Assembly: GCF_029882185.1 (NCBI RefSeq)
Contig: NZ_JAOULD010000010.1
Span: 1-46,434, forward strand
From: Candidatus Nitrosopumilus sp.
GTDB taxonomy: Archaea; Thermoproteota; Nitrososphaeria; Nitrososphaerales; Nitrosopumilaceae
Reading direction: 5' to 3'
Length of the DNA stretch: 46,434 nucleotides
The number at the start of each line of letters is the position of its first letter. Positions within the stretch are counted from its first letter, which is position 1. Position numbers and translations under genes: made by a program. This document shows positions 78 to 11,846 of this stretch, one piece after another. The notes under the pieces are model-generated. The model did no database searches. It was not told the DNA's origin and saw only the letters and a list, made by a program, of their open reading frames with translations.

Positions 78-95
78 GTAGTGGACCGGATGGGA
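78..95. repeat. Left attachment site (tRNA 3'-end duplicate)
   Basis: This 18-bp stretch, GTAGTGGACCGGATGGGA, is identical to 11747-11764. Allowing one mismatch the match runs to 21 bp. It contains the discriminator base, the 3' acceptor strand and the start of the T arm of tRNA-Val, without the rest of the tRNA, as expected for the distal att site of a tRNA-integrated element. A shorter copy (GTGGACCG, 53-60) sits 28 bp to the left and could be a trace of an earlier event. Confidence 0.75.
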
Positions 96-407: not shown

Positions 408-1049
408 TTATGGCCGTCTAGAGGCGTCTATCCCTATTAATGAGACAGTTCCAATACATGGATCAATAAAATTTGAAAATTCATTTGAATTACTAATTGT
501 TCGCATTACTGCAAAAACACGAATATTTGCATCAGGAAATGCTTCTGCAAGTCTATTTGCTGCACCTAAAACTGTAGCCCCTCTTGTAATAACATCATCA
601 ACCAAAATAATCTCTTTTGGTTTGAATAATAATTCTCTGATCCTCATTGAATCATAGTGTTGAGATGCTTTTGGTCTGTTAGGTGCTGATACTTTTGATG
701 ATCTAGGTAAAGGTGTCTCTCTGAATAAACATTCTTCATTTTTCCCTAAACCATTTTTTGCTAATGCTGATGTTATACGTTGAGGTACCCAAAGATCATC
801 TTTTTGTGGTAGTGAACTTTTTGGGGTAGGGATTAAAATGGTATTTTCATTGAAATAATCTGAAAATGGATAATCATTTAGATTACTTTTAATCATCTGT
901 GCAATTCTTTCAGACATTAAAATTCCTGATTTTAAAACTACGTCATTTTTGAGATTTCTCATAACTGTTCTAGATTCACTATGATTTGGCTCACTTCCTC
1001 TAGGAGTATAAGTTAACAATGAACCAAATTTGATTTCAGATATTTTCAT
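408..1049 (-). CDS. Phosphoribosyltransferase-fold protein, ShosT-like toxin candidate
   Basis: A 213-residue protein with the type I phosphoribosyltransferase PRPP-binding loop at about residues 147-160 (IILVDDVITRGAT). The preceding part (about 65-120) fits a ComF-like fold, but the N-terminal CxxC zinc ribbon of true ComF is absent. The gene starts 9 bp after the stop of the DprA-like gene, so the two form an operon. A DprA-like plus PRTase pair on a mobile element is the composition of ShosTA, a bacterial toxin-antitoxin/anti-phage system in which the PRTase is the toxin. The alternatives are a nucleotide-salvage enzyme or a ComF relative. Family assignment is firm; the toxin role is inferred from gene context. 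Confidence 0.75.
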   Translation of the reverse strand: MKISEIKFGSLLTYTPRGSEPNHSESRTVMRNLKNDVVLKSGILMSERIAQMIKSNLNDYPFSDYFNENTILIPTPKSSLPQKDDLWVPQRITSALAKNGLGKNEECLFRETPLPRSSKVSAPNRPKASQHYDSMRIRELLFKPKEIILVDDVITRGATVLGAANRLAEAFPDANIRVFAVMRTISNSNEFSNFIDPCIGTVSLIGIDASRRP

Positions 1050-1058
1050 TTTAATTAT

Positions 1059-1748
1059 CTATTGAAACAATTCAGGCATTTTGATACCTGTTGGCAAATT
1101 TTCTAAAATATCAGTTGATTCATCAAGTTTCATTGCACCATATTGTATCATCTTCTCTGGCCATTCTAATTTGTCATTCTCTACAACATCTTTACAAATA
1201 AACAAAGGTCTTCCTATTCTGAGTGTTTCCCAACCTTGATGTAATGAACCACTTGATTCTCCTGCTTCAACAATAACAGTTGCATCAGAAATTAACGCCA
1301 TAGTTCTATTTCTCAATACAAAATCTTTAGGAGTAGTTGGGTGACCAACTGGATATTGTGAAATAACTAGATGATTTTTCATTATTTCTTCTTGTAATTC
1401 AAAATTCTCTTTTGGATATACTTTATTTAATGGAGTTCCAATTACTGCAATAGTTTTACCACCATATTCAATAGCGGTTTTATGTCCTACTGTATCGATA
1501 CCTTTTGCAAGTCCACTTACAATCACTACCCCATTTTCTATTAAGATCTTTGAGATTTCTTTAGCTTCTGAAAGTCCTTTTGCTGATGCATCTCTGGAAC
1601 CAATAATTGAAACTCTCGGACATGGAACAGGAATTTCCATTGAACCCTCGTAGAAAATAATTTTTGGTTTAAATTTTGACTCAATGTCGTTTAATGGACG
1701 TCCAAGAAGGTTTTCTAGTTGAATAGATGGATATTCTGCTTCAACCAT
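1059..1748 (-). CDS. DprA/Smf-like (SLOG-fold) protein, ShosA-like antitoxin candidate
   Basis: A 229-residue protein with the DprA/Smf Rossmann-like fold: the IIGSRDAS loop at about 48-55, SGLAKGIDTVGH at about 78-89, the YPVGHPTTPKDFVLRNR segment at about 132-148, and the acidic VEAGESSGSL segment at about 160-169. True DprA is usually about 300-380 residues with N- and C-terminal extensions; this is the core alone. An AGGTGA ribosome-binding site lies about 12 nt ahead of the ATG. No competence genes are nearby, which argues against a transformation role. Together with the downstream PRTase it resembles the ShosA/ShosT pair, where the DprA-like partner neutralises the toxin. The family is clear; the defence role is inferred. 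Confidence 0.78.
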   Translation of the reverse strand: MVEAEYPSIQLENLLGRPLNDIESKFKPKIIFYEGSMEIPVPCPRVSIIGSRDASAKGLSEAKEISKILIENGVVIVSGLAKGIDTVGHKTAIEYGGKTIAVIGTPLNKVYPKENFELQEEIMKNHLVISQYPVGHPTTPKDFVLRNRTMALISDATVIVEAGESSGSLHQGWETLRIGRPLFICKDVVENDKLEWPEKMIQYGAMKLDESTDILENLPTGIKMPELFQ

Positions 1749-5406: not shown

Positions 5407-6327
5407 TTAACAATAATTGGATTGAATTCCTATTGCTGCATCAAGTATTGGTTGTCCAACTTCAGAAGTTAGATCACCACTGGTGATAAGACCATCCACC
5501 TGATTGATGAATGCATTTAGTTGATTACATGCTGCATTTGTATTGTTACTATCTAACTTGTTCATAATTTGATCAAGTTTTGATAATAATCCATTTGCAT
5601 TATTTCCAATCTCGCCATTTGTAATTGCATCATTAATCTCTTGCTCTATATTATCCAATGCTTGCTGTTGCGTAAGAACTGTCACGGTTCGGTATACAGT
5701 GTCGGCCTCATTTAATGATGAATCCATCACATTGTAACTTACTTGGTATGTTCCTGCGTGTGCAATCTTAACTGCACTAGAGTCAATTACAAGAGCACCA
5801 GACAAATCCTCACCAGAATCATCAGTAACTGTTGCTTCAAATTCCTCATAGATTTGATTGACTATCAATTCTTGTGGATTTGGACCATTTAGAGTGATTA
5901 CTGGAGGTGTTATGTCACCGTCACATGAAGCTGCTTCAGTACCTGATGGAGATCCGAAATAGATTGTTACATCACTATTCACTACAAATGTTTGTTTGTT
6001 TTCTGCAAAAGTAACTCCTTGTGGTGATACGGATATTTGTAAACCGTATGAACCATCAACAATTCCAGGAACCGCAATAGCACCATCCACATTCGTAGTT
6101 TGAATTTCAATTACAGTGTCACCTGAATCAAGTACGAGTATTGTCACCCCTTGAATTCCGCTTTCATTACAATCAAAGATTCCATTAAGATTTGCGTCAT
6201 CAAATGCTACCGCATTAATAACATGCTGGTTTGATCCATGATCTGCAAATGAAACTGCAGGTGCTGCAAAAACAGCTAACAATGCAAACATCGTAATAGA
6301 TGTTGCAAGTTTTTTTGTTAAAGTCAT
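5407..6327 (-). CDS. Secreted surface protein with SdrD_B-like, Ig-like and FIMAH-like domains
   Basis: A 306-residue exported protein. Residues 1-29 are a Sec signal peptide (KK, a hydrophobic core, then a PAVSFA cleavage region). Residues about 36-125 resemble an SdrD B-like carboxypeptidase-regulatory fold (DDANLNGIFDCNESGIQGVT). Residues about 140-215 resemble an Ig-like DUF5011/HYR domain that opens with TPPVITLNGPNP and ends with DTVYRTVTVL. Residues about 220-306 are helical with ACNQLNAFINQV, as in FIMAH domains. No C-terminal membrane anchor is visible, so it is probably secreted or bound to the S-layer. It sits alone on the element as cargo and may act in adhesion or surface masking. 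Domain names are by eye and moderately sure. Confidence 0.65.
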   Translation of the reverse strand: MTLTKKLATSITMFALLAVFAAPAVSFADHGSNQHVINAVAFDDANLNGIFDCNESGIQGVTILVLDSGDTVIEIQTTNVDGAIAVPGIVDGSYGLQISVSPQGVTFAENKQTFVVNSDVTIYFGSPSGTEAASCDGDITPPVITLNGPNPQELIVNQIYEEFEATVTDDSGEDLSGALVIDSSAVKIAHAGTYQVSYNVMDSSLNEADTVYRTVTVLTQQQALDNIEQEINDAITNGEIGNNANGLLSKLDQIMNKLDSNNTNAACNQLNAFINQVDGLITSGDLTSEVGQPILDAAIGIQSNYC

Positions 6328-6615
6328 TAAGATGCGAAATGGATGTCATAAATATATGGATTGCCAAAACATCCAAATTCCTATAAATATTCATAAAATA
6401 GTGAATCGTGTATTCAATTGAGAAAAGTAGGTAAACATAGATCTTTACACAAGATGGAGTGCATTTAGATTTTTTTCTTAGAGGTTTTCATGTGATAGAT
6501 TAATTCATTTGTAATTTGACAATTTTCATCCATCATGTTGGGGATAAAAATCAGACCCACGTGTAATTAATTCAAATTAGATTATTCTCAAAATGATGTA
6601 TTTAGTTTTATTTTT

Positions 6616-6792
6616 TTATTTTTGAGCATTGATGTCTTTTTGTAATTTTTCAAGTTTTATTTCGAGTTCTTTAATTTTTTGTGATAGATCTGATTTCTTA
6701 TTTGATGATGCTGTACGTATTTCATATACTCTTCCGGTTAAACTAATGTCTCCGCGTTTAGTTCTAGGCTTGCTCTCTTTATCACTTGTCAC
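6616..6792 (-). CDS. Microprotein C of the AIPR operon (58 residues)
   Basis: A 58-codon frame starting with GTG at 6792; no in-frame ATG exists upstream. The N-terminal half, KPRTKRGDISLTGRVYE (about 8-24), aligns with the other two microproteins (KKRKRRGDKELVAESY and KKRKKRSDADVTGYAYE). The C-terminal half (about 34-56) has the heptad look of a short coiled coil (SQKIKELEIKLEKLQKDI), which the other two lack. It lies 63 bp downstream of microprotein B on the same strand. The shared motif across three tandem frames is the best evidence that it is a real gene. Function unknown; the strongly basic start could contact nucleic acid. Confidence 0.55.
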   Translation of the reverse strand: MTSDKESKPRTKRGDISLTGRVYEIRTASSNKKSDLSQKIKELEIKLEKLQKDINAQK

Positions 6793-6855
6793 TGAAAATT
6801 GATAGATATGAACCCTTGAAAGTTTTGTGGTGGGGGTATGATGCTAGTTCACTCA

Positions 6856-6954
6856 CTAATCATCGGAGGAGCCAGATCCTCCAACGACGGATTCATATGC
6901 ATACCCAGTCACATCTGCATCACTACGTTTTTTTCGTTTTTTCTCAGTCGTCAT
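6856..6954 (-). CDS. Microprotein B of the AIPR operon (32 residues)
   Basis: A 32-codon ATG frame whose start overlaps the end of microprotein A by 11 bp, which suggests translational coupling. It reads as a basic block (EKKRKKRSD) followed by ADVTGYAYESV and a Gly/Ser/Asp tail. The KKRxxRxD block followed by a Tyr about eight residues later is shared with microproteins A and C. Too short for a family assignment. Confidence 0.5.
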   Translation of the reverse strand: MTTEKKRKKRSDADVTGYAYESVVGGSGSSDD

Positions 6955-7057
6955 TATTCTCACTTTCATTTTCACTACTAGGTGAACTCATGTAACTCTC
7001 TGCAACTAATTCTTTATCTCCTCTTCGTTTACGCTTTTTATCATCTGCCAACTTCAT
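6944..7057 (-). CDS. Microprotein A of the AIPR operon (37 residues)
   Basis: A 37-codon ATG frame starting 5 nt after the stop of the membrane-protein gene. The N-terminal half is very basic (KKRKRRGDKELVAESY), the C-terminal half acidic and Ser-rich. It is similar in its first half to microproteins B and C. Its tight placement within the operon supports expression. Possible roles, all inference, are an antitoxin, a trigger sensor, or a nucleic-acid-binding adaptor for the neighbouring effector genes. Confidence 0.5.
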   Translation of the reverse strand: MKLADDKKRKRRGDKELVAESYMSSPSSENESENNDD

Positions 7058-7062
7058 CACTA

Positions 7063-7542
7063 CTAAATTGCAATTATTCCAAATACCAACAAGAACGATA
7101 TAAAGCTGATACCTAATCCTAAAAGTGTAAAAACATTGCCAGCATACAACAACTTTGCTTTTCTATTGTTAGCTTCTTCAATATCGGCAATTAGATCAAA
7201 ATATGCATAAAGTGCTTGCTCTCTTTTATCATCCAATTTATCATATTTATCAAAGAATTTTTCTGGCATGAATACAGGTAAGGTTTTTCCAAATTTTGTT
7301 AATACGCCAATGCCTATGCTCACAGATATCAATAAAATGCCTATTCCCCATCCAAAAAGTTCAGTGTATTCATTTTGTATAATCTGTTCGTAATCCATTG
7401 AACCAATTACAAAACTAAGTATGGCAATAATAACTCCTGAAAATCCAATTTGAGTGCCAGCCTTGCCATCAAGATGTTGATATCTTGAGAATTCTTGATC
7501 ATATCTCTTTATTGTTAAATCATAAGCAATATCATCCGTCAA
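7063..7542 (-). CDS. Small membrane protein, Pycsar/2TM-effector-like
   Basis: A 159-residue protein with membrane segments at about 32-48, 63-82 and 131-158 and a charged loop of about 45 residues between the second and third. The region ahead of the first segment (LDGKAGTQIGFSGVIIAIL, about 24-42) resembles the D-x-KA-x3-GF motif of membrane effectors in Pycsar and SLATT-type defence systems. It starts with TTG at 7542, with AGGAG about 11 nt ahead, 27 bp after the AIPR stop, so the two are in one operon. In such systems the membrane protein causes membrane damage and cell arrest on infection. No cyclase gene is nearby, so the trigger would have to come from AIPR or the microproteins. Membrane nature is sure; effector role inferred. 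Confidence 0.6.
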   Translation of the reverse strand: MTDDIAYDLTIKRYDQEFSRYQHLDGKAGTQIGFSGVIIAILSFVIGSMDYEQIIQNEYTELFGWGIGILLISVSIGIGVLTKFGKTLPVFMPEKFFDKYDKLDDKREQALYAYFDLIADIEEANNRKAKLLYAGNVFTLLGLGISFISFLLVFGIIAI

Positions 7543-7569: not shown

Positions 7570-9279
7570 TTAGAATAAGTCTTTAATTTCCTTAAACTTG
7601 TCCTTCTTTCTTTTCATAATATTCTTTAGAATTGTTTTAGACTCTGAATTCCATACATGATTAGCAAAGAAATTATGTAATGTCATAATGTCTCGCCCTT
7701 CTACATCCTGCCTGATGTGTAAGGTTTGATCAAAGAATTGATCTAAGATTTCATCAATCAATGCCAATAGCTTTTCATTGACATCAAAATTTTCAAAATA
7801 TGGATCTAATGATTTTGGTTCTTTCTTTAAATCTACTTTTTTACCAATAATATGATCGGTTAATGCTTGGAAGTAAGCAGTTACAAAAAGTAATCTTGCA
7901 TATTTTTTCTCAGGCATGTTTGCTTTTTGGCTTCCATAATTGAATTTTTTCTCACAATAAGACTTGGTCAAATATGGATAAAGCAATAATCTATAGTCAT
8001 CCTCAATTTCACCTTCTGAGAAGATTCTGGTATATTCAGATCCACCTGGCATGTATTTACTAATACTCCCATAAGGTTTTGCTGGATTTTGTTCTATTGC
8101 AGCAGCCATTGCTTGAATAGCATCATTTGCAGGTATTATCCTATCTTCATTTTCACTAAGATATTTGTTGAAAGTTTCATCTCCACGAAATATTTCTTTT
8201 TCTTGTTTAGATTTTGCCATCCAAGCACCCGCTTGTTGTTCATAGTAATAACCAAGTTTTGTAGATAATTGACTGCCAATAACATTATGGAATTTCTCCA
8301 AAGATATCAAATCTCTGCCTTTGACGGCATTTTGTGAATTTCTAAATTTAGTAATATTATTTCGTGTTGTTCTTGTATCTTCTTTAATAATTGTAATTTG
8401 AATAGCTCCTTTGATTAGCGGATCTCCTTTTACAACATCAGCAATAGTAGTAGATGTTTGAGCGCCATTTACAATCTGAGGTGCAACTAACTTTATTTTA
8501 GCATCTCCTAAAAGATCAAAATCTTTGACAACTATTGTCACACCATTATTATAATAGAACACTTCTTCAGGTTCTTCAAGCAATGATTTTCTTAATTGTT
8601 TATTGACTTTGGTTTTTACGGGTAAGAATTTTCTAATATTTGACTCAAAAATGTACTTCCCACTTCTATTTACCAATTGACCCAGTTCAGATAACGAAAT
8701 TACTCCAATGATAGTTTTATCAAATTCCATCAAATTCTCTAAAGTCACTAATTCCGATTTGTCATCAAATGGTTCTGTAATTTCATTCCATAGTTTCTTA
8801 ACAATTTCATCAATTCCAAAAACATGAAAATTCTCAGTATCGCGATATGTAACTTTTTGATCAGTGACATAGATTGCTTCCCAGTCCCAGCCTTTTCTTT
8901 TGATATCGATCAGGGCATCTCTAATTCGTCCCTCAGGTAATTCATTAGGACTGGTTTCAAGAAGGGTGTTTATTTTTGATTTGAATGTTTCAATAGAATC
9001 CATACTATGAGATGTTCCAAATTTAGATTGAAATATTCTGAAGAAATTCATTTCGGAACCTCGAATTTCTAAAATTGCGTCAATTCCCATGTCATTTGGA
9101 CCATCTAAGGTTCCATTTTCAGCATCATCTTCAGTTGCATGGAATGCTTTTGTCAAAATCCATTCTAAAAATAATCTTCCCTTTTCAACAGAATTCTGTC
9201 CTTTCAAAACTTCATTTTCTATGCCATGTTTTACACTTTCAATAAAATTATCTGAAGGCTCAATAAATTCTGCTGGCAT
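7570..9279 (-). CDS. AIPR-family abortive phage resistance protein
   Basis: A 569-residue protein with the hallmark AIPR core: ESNIRKFL (about 212-219), FYYNNGVTI (241-249) and PQIVNGAQTS (267-276). The N-terminal part (about 30-90) looks like a restriction-endonuclease-type PD-(D/E)xK fold, with GIDAILEI (Asp67) followed by FQSKF (Gln84, Lys86). AIPR proteins are associated with abortive infection and often stand beside restriction-type genes. The gene heads a same-strand operon with the membrane protein (27 bp apart) and three microproteins. A likely role is sensing phage nucleic acid and cleaving it or signalling to the membrane partner. Family call is strong; nuclease activity and partnership are inferred. 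Confidence 0.85.
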   Translation of the reverse strand: MPAEFIEPSDNFIESVKHGIENEVLKGQNSVEKGRLFLEWILTKAFHATEDDAENGTLDGPNDMGIDAILEIRGSEMNFFRIFQSKFGTSHSMDSIETFKSKINTLLETSPNELPEGRIRDALIDIKRKGWDWEAIYVTDQKVTYRDTENFHVFGIDEIVKKLWNEITEPFDDKSELVTLENLMEFDKTIIGVISLSELGQLVNRSGKYIFESNIRKFLPVKTKVNKQLRKSLLEEPEEVFYYNNGVTIVVKDFDLLGDAKIKLVAPQIVNGAQTSTTIADVVKGDPLIKGAIQITIIKEDTRTTRNNITKFRNSQNAVKGRDLISLEKFHNVIGSQLSTKLGYYYEQQAGAWMAKSKQEKEIFRGDETFNKYLSENEDRIIPANDAIQAMAAAIEQNPAKPYGSISKYMPGGSEYTRIFSEGEIEDDYRLLLYPYLTKSYCEKKFNYGSQKANMPEKKYARLLFVTAYFQALTDHIIGKKVDLKKEPKSLDPYFENFDVNEKLLALIDEILDQFFDQTLHIRQDVEGRDIMTLHNFFANHVWNSESKTILKNIMKRKKDKFKEIKDLF

Positions 9280-9550: not shown

Positions 9551-9937
9551 TTATTTAATTTTCAAAAGAATTTTCTCATAAATTTTAGGAATTTTTCCTT
9601 CAGATAGATTCTTTTTGATATACCATAACGCGGATTTGTTAATCCCTAACTCTTTTCTTTGATTAGGAGTCATATTCAAAATTTTCTCTCTTAATTCCAA
9701 ATCATCATTTCTATTCAATTTCATTTTAGGAATAATAAAATTAAATTCTTTTTTCTTGTCTACAATAAAATTAGATAATTGTTGCAGGTTATCTTGTAGT
9801 ATAATCTGATATGGATAATTTTTTCCATTCTTGTAATTGTATTTGGCATTAAAGTTGTAATTAATCTTCTCAATTAACAATTTAGCAACGTCCTCTTCCA
9901 ATCTAGTATGATAGTTTTCTGTAAAGTTGGATTTCAT
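9551..9937 (-). CDS. Free-standing Cas1/casposase-like C-terminal fragment
   Basis: A 128-residue basic protein that I read as the last third of a Cas1-type integrase. It has the helical NYHTRLEEDVAKLLIEKINYNFN start, a QLSNFIVDKKKEFNFIIPK stretch, and the terminal ELREKILNMTPNQRKELG plus INKSALWYIKKNLSEGK helix-turn-helix seen at the end of some archaeal Cas1 proteins. The catalytic Glu/His/Asp part of Cas1 lies upstream in the family and is absent; the 89 bp before the start lead straight to a divergent gene. There is no CRISPR array or other cas gene. An AGAGGG sequence just precedes the ATG, so it may be expressed as a DNA-binding protein. It could also be a relic. The family call is by eye only. 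Confidence 0.4.
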   Translation of the reverse strand: MKSNFTENYHTRLEEDVAKLLIEKINYNFNAKYNYKNGKNYPYQIILQDNLQQLSNFIVDKKKEFNFIIPKMKLNRNDDLELREKILNMTPNQRKELGINKSALWYIKKNLSEGKIPKIYEKILLKIK

Positions 9938-10286: not shown

Positions 10287-11699
10287 CTACTCCTCATCTG
10301 CAATCGAAATTTTTGTTTTAGATATGCTCTCCAAAAACTCCTCTAGTTCACCATGATTTTCTGTAACAAAGTGTTCAACAAACTCATCCAAATTCATTGC
10401 ATGTGAACCTATTTTTGCCATTTGAAGTGCGTCTGCTCTGTCGGGATTTTCTTCTGCCCATTGGATTAGCCTCTTCTTCATGGCCTCATTCATTTTGCTT
10501 TTGGCATCTATTCTTTTTACCTGCAATTTCAGATTGTCAATCTCCCTTTGCTGTTTCTCTAACTTCTCAATCTTTTCTGTTTTCTTCTTGTTTTCTAATC
10601 TAAGACGTTTTTCATTTGATATGGTGAGATTTGGAATTGCATTGAGATATTCCTCTGCAAGCTCCAACGTATGTGTCTTGAAGTAGTTTCTATCCAGTTT
10701 GATAAGGCCCGTATGGCCCATCATGAACTCTTTTTTGATAAGTGAACCTAACGGTGAATCCTTTGATAGCGATTCCTTGCATGTCTTGTTCCAGAATCTC
10801 CTAAAGCCATTCATTATTGGAACCTCGTACCTTTTTCCCTTGATTTTGTCTCTTAGCCCTGCTTTTTTGATCATTCTCTCGACTCTTTTCTTTACTCCAA
10901 TTGGGGTTGTTCTCCTCAGGATTGTTCCTTCTTTTTTGAAGATTGGATCCTGTTCTTTTGGCTCCCTTCCTATTTCTCTTGTCCAATCTGACTTGTAATC
11001 CATTAAAGCTTCATATGCCTCAGGAGTGATGAATGCAGGATAATTGAAACTGGTTCCTTGATAAATTTTCAGCATCGCACAAACAATGACTGCATCATCC
11101 TCTTCTGATTCTGTAATCTCAAACTTTAGCTGATCATCTACCTGGTAAACTGGAGTCAAATCCTGCCAGTTCAAATCAAATCCACCTGCCCTGATTCCAG
11201 AACTTGCACTGACTAGAATGATTGCCCTGTCAATGGAACCGTTGGCAAATTTTAACATCTTTTGAATCTCATCTCTAGTCCATCCTCTGGAATCTGAAAC
11301 ATTGTCCTGTTCTGGAAATGTTGCATAGACTCTATTCCACGAAATCACTACCCCGTTCATGTCAAAGAGTTTCTTTATTGGCTTGAAGTAATTGTCAATT
11401 GAGCTTGGATTGAGATAATCTGAATCTTCTTTTGAAAGTATTGTCCTTTCTTTGAGTTTCATGGATAAGTTCAACAAAAGATCTCTGGTCCAATCCGGAT
11501 CTTCCTTTGCGTGTTTGACAAACTGCTTGACCCGTTCCTCAAAATCCCCTTCTAGAATGTCCTCAAAAATCTTGCATAATACATGCCGTAATGTTCTGGT
11601 GTATTTCTCACGGGTCTCTTTTGCCTTGATTCCTTGGTGGAATAACTCTAGTGGACTCTCCTCTCCTATCCTTTGGAACTCTTCTTTTGTTATCTTCAT
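10287..11699 (-). CDS. Tyrosine recombinase (element integrase)
   Basis: A 470-residue integrase. An N-terminal SAM-like DNA-binding part (about 15-125) is followed by the catalytic domain with SSGIRAGGF (box I Arg170), NGFRRFWNK (box II Arg300/Arg301; the usual His of HxxR is not obvious), MMGHTG (His329) and the nucleophile in DRNYFK (Tyr339). After about residue 365 there is a Lys/Glu-rich coiled coil (to about 400) and a further acidic helical tail, unusual additions that may serve multimerisation. The gene starts 51 bp from the 3' end of tRNA-Val and points away from it. It is uninterrupted, so integration does not split it. It catalyses integration and excision between the att copies at 78-95 and 11747-11764. 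Confidence 0.88.
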   Translation of the reverse strand: MKITKEEFQRIGEESPLELFHQGIKAKETREKYTRTLRHVLCKIFEDILEGDFEERVKQFVKHAKEDPDWTRDLLLNLSMKLKERTILSKEDSDYLNPSSIDNYFKPIKKLFDMNGVVISWNRVYATFPEQDNVSDSRGWTRDEIQKMLKFANGSIDRAIILVSASSGIRAGGFDLNWQDLTPVYQVDDQLKFEITESEEDDAVIVCAMLKIYQGTSFNYPAFITPEAYEALMDYKSDWTREIGREPKEQDPIFKKEGTILRRTTPIGVKKRVERMIKKAGLRDKIKGKRYEVPIMNGFRRFWNKTCKESLSKDSPLGSLIKKEFMMGHTGLIKLDRNYFKTHTLELAEEYLNAIPNLTISNEKRLRLENKKKTEKIEKLEKQQREIDNLKLQVKRIDAKSKMNEAMKKRLIQWAEENPDRADALQMAKIGSHAMNLDEFVEHFVTENHGELEEFLESISKTKISIADEE

Positions 11700-11746: not shown

Positions 11747-11764
11747 GTAGTGGACCGGATGGGA
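11747..11764. repeat. Right attachment site inside tRNA-Val 3' end
   Basis: This is the 18-bp direct-repeat partner of 78-95. It covers four bases beyond the tRNA, the discriminator, the 3' acceptor strand and the beginning of the T arm. The tRNA on this side stays complete, which shows that the element lies to the left. Confidence 0.75.
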
Positions 11765-11846
11765 TTTGAACCCACGACCTTTGCGGGAAATTAATTTCCT
11801 TACGCAGTGTGAGTGCGTCATCCAAACCAAACTAGACGACCGGTCC
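11751..11846 (-). tRNA. tRNA-Val (CAC) with probable 20-nt intron in the variable region
   Basis: Read on the minus strand, GGACCGG pairs with CCGGTCC (acceptor, discriminator A). The D arm is GTCT/GGAT. The anticodon arm is ACGCA-CTCACAC-TGCGT, giving anticodon CAC (valine). The T arm is GTGGG-TTCAAAT-CCCAT. Between anticodon stem and T stem there are 26 nt, too many for a valine tRNA. Removing 20 nt (about 11778-11797, containing the hairpin GGAAATTAATTTCC) leaves a 76-nt tRNA with a normal AAGGTC variable loop. AAGG occurs at both junctions, so the exact cut is uncertain. Non-canonical introns are known in thaumarchaeal tRNAs. CCA is not encoded. The gene is the integration target of the left-hand element. 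Confidence 0.88.

Follow-up and report, generated by a model that had tools for sequence, protein, structure and literature searches.

Comparison of their sequences gives good support to the interpretation that three very short frames on the minus strand of a Candidatus Nitrosopumilus contig (u1, u2 and u3) are real paralogous frames derived by duplication, and a partnership between microproteins of this kind and the membrane protein encoded directly upstream is likewise well supported. In the window (i.e., the whole stretch of 46,434 nucleotides analysed here, an entire contig), u1 starts 5 nt past the stop codon of the membrane-protein gene, its end overlaps the start of u2 by 11 nt, and a spacing of 63 nt separates u2 from u3 (Table 1). 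The closely spaced minus-strand order AIPR protein, membrane protein, u1, u2, u3 suggests a putative operon running from the AIPR gene to u3, with the microprotein frames at its end. The initial annotation had described frames of 37, 32 and 58 codons, two of them overlapping and each opening with a similar block; coordinates, lengths and blocks all proved correct on re-checking. Other starts are possible for u1 (GTG at 7060, TTG at codon 3), and residues about 34–58 of u3 could form a coiled coil, judging from their Lys/Glu/Leu/Ile pattern and from sub-threshold matches to helical families.

Table 1. Features of the integrated element and its boundary (window positions; a dot marks features given without strand).
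Feature	Position	Strand	Remarks
Second att copy, left end of element	78-95	.	18-nt repeat
Phosphoribosyltransferase, ShosT-type	408-1049	-	PADLOC ShosT 1.6e-27
DprA-like protein, ShosA-type	1059-1748	-	PADLOC ShosA 1e-75
u3	6792-6616	-	58 aa; GTG start; candidate C-terminal coiled coil
u2	6954-6856	-	32 aa; ATG start; MTTEKKRKKRSDADVTGYAYESVVGGSGSSDD
u1	7057-6944	-	37 aa; ATG start; MKLADDKKRKRRGDKELVAESYMSSPSSENESENNDD
PycTM-like membrane protein, 159 aa, presumed effector	7063-7542	-	TTG start; PADLOC PycTM 1.5e-4
AIPR protein, 569 aa, first gene of putative operon	7570-9279	-	Pfam AIPR 5e-43; PADLOC AbiU 3e-46
Cas1-like C-terminal fragment, casposon type	9551-9937	-	matches the terminal part of frames of about 410 aa in relatives; Cas1_II 1e-3
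Integrase	10287-11699	-	tyrosine-recombinase-like by position and length; adjoins the tRNA-Val att site
att copy in tRNA-Val 3' end	11747-11764	.	exact 18-nt repeat; similarity to relatives begins here
tRNA-Val	11750-11846	-	tRNA prediction

Paralogy and coding constraint

In Smith-Waterman comparisons against composition-preserving shuffles, the similarity of the frames gave p < 2e-4 for u1-u2, < 2e-4 for u2-u3 and about 4e-3 for u1-u3. A triplet test, which admitted every combination of three same-strand ORFs of 25-80 aa within the gap 6331-7066 and took the minimum pairwise score as its statistic, yielded an observed score of 42 that was reached in none of 4000 dinucleotide shuffles (maximum 35), and the highest value among 737 real windows of equal length from the same contig was 32. 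The three blocks differ from each other at 27-34 of 54 nucleotide positions, and in the three pairs 5/8, 6/9 and 5/7 of the positions identical in amino acid are written with a different codon, arginine at such sites appearing as CGT, CGA, AGA and CGC. In-frame BLOSUM scores of the pairs are 43, 43 and 29, as opposed to means of 0.8, 5.0 and -8.5 under a nucleotide-matched mutation null (p = 5e-5 each, which is the floor of the test), and the remaining forward frames of the blocks score negatively. The register of these codon and BLOSUM tests was picked post hoc, once the similarity was known, so that the shuffle tests, which are maximised over registers, and especially the triplet test, give the safer figures. 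Different codons at identical residues, combined with high in-frame similarity, point to duplicated coding sequences under selection at the protein level and not to a DNA repeat, and u1-u3 appear constrained as proteins, as judged from comparison of the paralogues with each other. An Rfam scan placed no family at threshold over the region, with one sub-threshold match inside the membrane gene. The earlier claim that the frames are real and duplicated is thus borne out by the shuffle tests, the real-window control, the codon signature and the in-frame BLOSUM scores.

The profile of u1-u3 found no homologue in 95 genomes of the genus, 250 Nitrosopumilaceae genomes, a 151-genome sample of the order or the viral contigs of IMG/VR, its matches in these collections being noise (e.g., one antisense to an Rpb4-like gene). 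Hits in related elements, which the initial annotation had proposed to look for, are therefore missing as far as the sequence of u1-u3 is concerned, and present as far as position is concerned, since a tiny charged ORF stands behind a related membrane protein in the element of one relative (genome G107) and in other relatives.

The membrane protein and its relatives

The tentative assignment of the membrane protein to PycTM comes from weak-to-moderate profile hits: in relatives the PADLOC PycTM profile scores 1.7e-7 (G107) and 2.4e-5 (G258), with one match spanning nearly the full length, and the Pfam and NCBIfam matches of the family lie below cut-off (Pfam PycTM 0.055 in one member). To the NCBIfam SLATT families the protein of the window has no match, and the relative in G425 reaches 14.7 bits with SLATT_4, for which the cut-off is 55. 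The AlphaFold2 model of the 159-aa protein is all-helical (helices 2-48, 60-83, 93-101 and 104-158; mean pLDDT 79.6, pTM 0.64), and a comparison of its fold returned nothing below E 0.09, i.e., no structural relative. Hydrophobicity suggests three membrane passes (about 30-48, 61-81 and 131-155), with the N-terminal charged helix and linker 84-130 predicted to face the cytosol. Neither the membrane protein nor the region of the element was found in phages, plasmids or viral contigs, and a scan of the genome collection with the membrane protein returned the G258 locus only.

In the seven clearest members of the membrane-protein family, the window included, a charged ORF of 26-50 aa is found at the stop codon in 7/7, starting between -16 and +13 nt relative to it; the sizes are 37 aa in the window, 28 in G107, 26 in G258, 41 in G240, 39 in G400, 38 in G425 and 50 in G542. 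Two remoter membrane-protein matches have a 22-aa ORF (G096) and none (G375). Of 90 control genes that have no gene close downstream, 15.6% carry an ORF of 26 aa or more in the equivalent position, and a hand binomial for seven of nine loci gives about 6e-5, a figure that overstates independence because G400, G425 and G542 belong to one genus. The membrane gene and its small soluble partner are adjacent and co-directional, as in the layout of toxin-antitoxin pairs.

A stronger proof of the association than this binomial is the co-occurrence and adjacency within that genus of a distant archaeal family: in 91 genomes of the family, the profile of its microprotein matches exactly G400, G425 and G542, the membrane protein is in the same 3/91, and the microprotein is always adjacent to it. 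A fourth, weak membrane-protein match (G355) sits in repetitive sequence. Comparison of G425 with G542 gives dN 0.083 and dS 1.13 (dN/dS about 0.07) for the microprotein and dN 0.081 and dS 1.05 for the membrane protein, values which indicate purifying selection on the microprotein as strong as that on the membrane protein. Shine-Dalgarno-like sequences (GAGGTGAT and GAGGTGAG, respectively) precede the microprotein starts in these two genomes, and in the G542 microprotein (L120 1645-1797, plus strand) the core motif is doubled internally, as WKPDPSLTM and WKSDDSLTM (WKPDPSLTMEIRKGAD and WKSDDSLTMTLKAS).

Across lineages, the microproteins show no recognisable homology. The comparison of the window with the motif of the G400 family, WK[PS]DxSLTM, gave p = 0.28, and the likeness of this motif to KRGDISLTG of u3, seen by eye, is not claimed. 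The G107 microprotein is suggestively similar to u1 and u2, with p ranging from about 0.01 to 0.09 with the choice of sequence to be shuffled. It carries a KRKKR stretch, and the basic KxRxKR block is common to it and to u1-u3; those of G258 and G240 are purely acidic, with no basic block, and others are of mixed charge. Such unlike sequences could be due either to very fast divergence or to the recruitment of unrelated microproteins into one role. In G240 (L063, about 6200-7000), the membrane gene is decayed by a stop and, together with the acidic 41-aa ORF, has tRNA-like end copies AATCCCTGTGGGCCCA on either side; this bracketed unit is possibly the remnant of a very small element.

The element and its other cargo

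An exact 18-nt direct repeat, GTAGTGGACCGGATGGGA, occurs at 78-95 and 11747-11764, and DNA similarity to other genomes starts at 11747 or a few bases away. The repeat at tRNA-Val, the integrase adjoining it and this similarity boundary together define an integrated element of 11.7 kb. The integrase (10287-11699) has no match to a Pfam family; the 77-nt left flank is unmatched beside tRNA-Val in relatives, where an empty site was looked for. Integrase and direct repeats at a tRNA 3' end, the former assigned by position, are what characterises the cryptic integrated elements of Thaumarchaeota (PMC6563490), which the present one also resembles in being shorter than 20 kb and in having variable cargo; it differs from them in carrying defence genes as its cargo (ShosTA-like, AIPR and PycTM-like with microproteins), and AIPR is unmentioned in PMC6563490. 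The tRNA-Val att sites, the AIPR, the PycTM-like membrane protein and the ShosTA-like pair are context absent from the initial annotation.

In the ShosTA-like pair, the phosphoribosyltransferase gene lies directly downstream of the DprA-like one, 9 nt apart, as in ShosTA. The 569-aa protein belongs to AIPR (PF10592), with 148 bits against a gathering cut-off of 25. Most genomes of the genus also encode another AIPR protein, which shares about 42% identity with this one and looks like a core-genome component. The closest relative outside (G009, L067 6869-9919) is 82% identical and broken by two TAG codons and a frame split; it has no u1-u3-like ORFs and adjoins a pair that looks, by inspection, like AbiEi/AbiEii.

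The element of G107 sits at tRNA-Leu and has an integrase and Cas1 fragment as here, then different cargo, then the membrane gene, directly at whose stop the 28-aa ORF lies; its Cas1 fragment is 75% and its membrane protein 37% identical to those of the window. The fragment (128-142 aa; in G107 at L061 6057-6485, minus strand) neighbours the integrase in both elements, which are inserted at different tRNAs, and may have been retained as a module instead of being debris. Its last 45 or so residues recur in frames of about 900-960 aa located 5-6 kb off (e.g., G000:C18:11597-11725 and G109:C31:6335-6469), which are probably casposon DNA polymerases having a C-terminal module in common with the Cas1-like protein.

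Discussion

The reading we tentatively prefer, and to which we give somewhat less than an even chance, is that u1-u3 are translated, diverged copies of a soluble charged microprotein that would be the partner and regulator, most likely the inhibitor, of the PycTM-like effector. The membrane protein would be an effector of the abortive-infection type that crosses the membrane about three times and exposes a large helical part to the cytosol. Expressed off one transcript with it, the microproteins would bind this cytosolic part and set the activity of the effector, most likely holding it closed until they are removed or titrated by infection, and their triplication could provide several versions of an inhibitor or sensor. 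Since the conserved unit consists of membrane protein and microprotein, u1-u3 would have arisen by tandem amplification of the partner within a single element. We infer physical binding, inhibition as its direction, infection as the trigger, and killing; an inhibitor is favoured by toxin-antitoxin logic and by analogy with Panoptes (OptSE), in which the product of the operon partner holds a membrane effector in check (PMC12657218).

Both Panoptes and the SLATT/S-2TM effectors resemble the unit described here in having a small membrane effector in a two-part system; however, OptE of Panoptes contains a nucleotide-binding beta-barrel domain and is partnered by a nucleotide synthase, neither of which is found here. 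To PycTM of Pycsar, which disrupts membrane integrity upon activation (PMC11224242), the membrane protein is similar in its match to the profile, in length and in position within defence cargo, whereas its partner is a microprotein. No uridylate or cytidylate cyclase was recognised among the main ORFs of the element by profile scans, or around the relatives by inspection, and since the definition of Pycsar requires a pyrimidine cyclase (PMC11224242), the unit falls outside it. AIPR/AbiU abortive-infection proteins include the first gene of the operon, but were not found alongside membrane gene and microprotein at the other loci examined.

The main rival to inhibition is an activating or sensing role, with the microproteins as positive partners of the effector: sensor or activator subunits (e.g., binding a viral protein or nucleic acid via the Lys/Arg block) or structural subunits of a pore. 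The same evidence of linkage and selection applies to it, the basic block of u1-u3 and of the G107 microprotein would suit it, and three paralogues could recognise different triggers; however, none of the microproteins has a known sensor domain, the acidic ones of G258 and G240 lack the block, and we regard such a role as rather unlikely. It is less likely still that the microproteins serve the AIPR protein, or are independent small basic nucleic-acid-binding proteins of the element that stand behind the membrane gene by coincidence. Although the AIPR gene shares their operon and their basic blocks resemble, by inspection, nucleic-acid-binding tails, the 82%-identical (and broken) AIPR outside has no such ORFs and the other six units of membrane gene and microprotein have no AIPR, from which the AIPR gene appears to be local cargo.

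Stop-codon readthrough or frameshifting could append the small ORFs to the C-terminus of the membrane protein as a tail, or they could have been fused to it once and be detached now. In 5/7 loci (G258, G240, G400, G425 and G542) the ORF does lie in the frame of the membrane protein right past the stop, but those of the window and G107 are out of frame, G258 and G240 have double stops, the ORFs of G425 and G542 have their own TTG starts and Shine-Dalgarno-like sites, and u2 and u3 cannot be tails, all of which makes this very improbable. Chance ORFs in AT-rich DNA, or non-coding remnants of repeats, are strongly disfavoured and deserve hardly any credence. It is true that u1-u3 are without homologues in the collections searched and that a G+C content of 33% makes short ORFs frequent (57-aa and 69-aa antisense ORFs are present); yet the shuffle and real-window controls, the codon signature, the relation to the membrane gene and the lack of an Rfam family at threshold all speak against it.

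A broader generalisation is also conceivable, though we hold it with less confidence: archaea might possess PycTM-type effectors that work without a nucleotide second messenger and are controlled by dedicated, fast-diverging microproteins, which would be able to expand through tandem copies, as in this element, or through repeats inside one protein, as in G542. PycTM-type effectors are known to act downstream of nucleotide signalling, and a recurring archaeal microprotein partner in loci without a recognisable cyclase would mean a different mode of control for such a membrane effector. It would also mean that genes below the size of ordinary gene finding can be essential to defence modules on archaeal mobile DNA.
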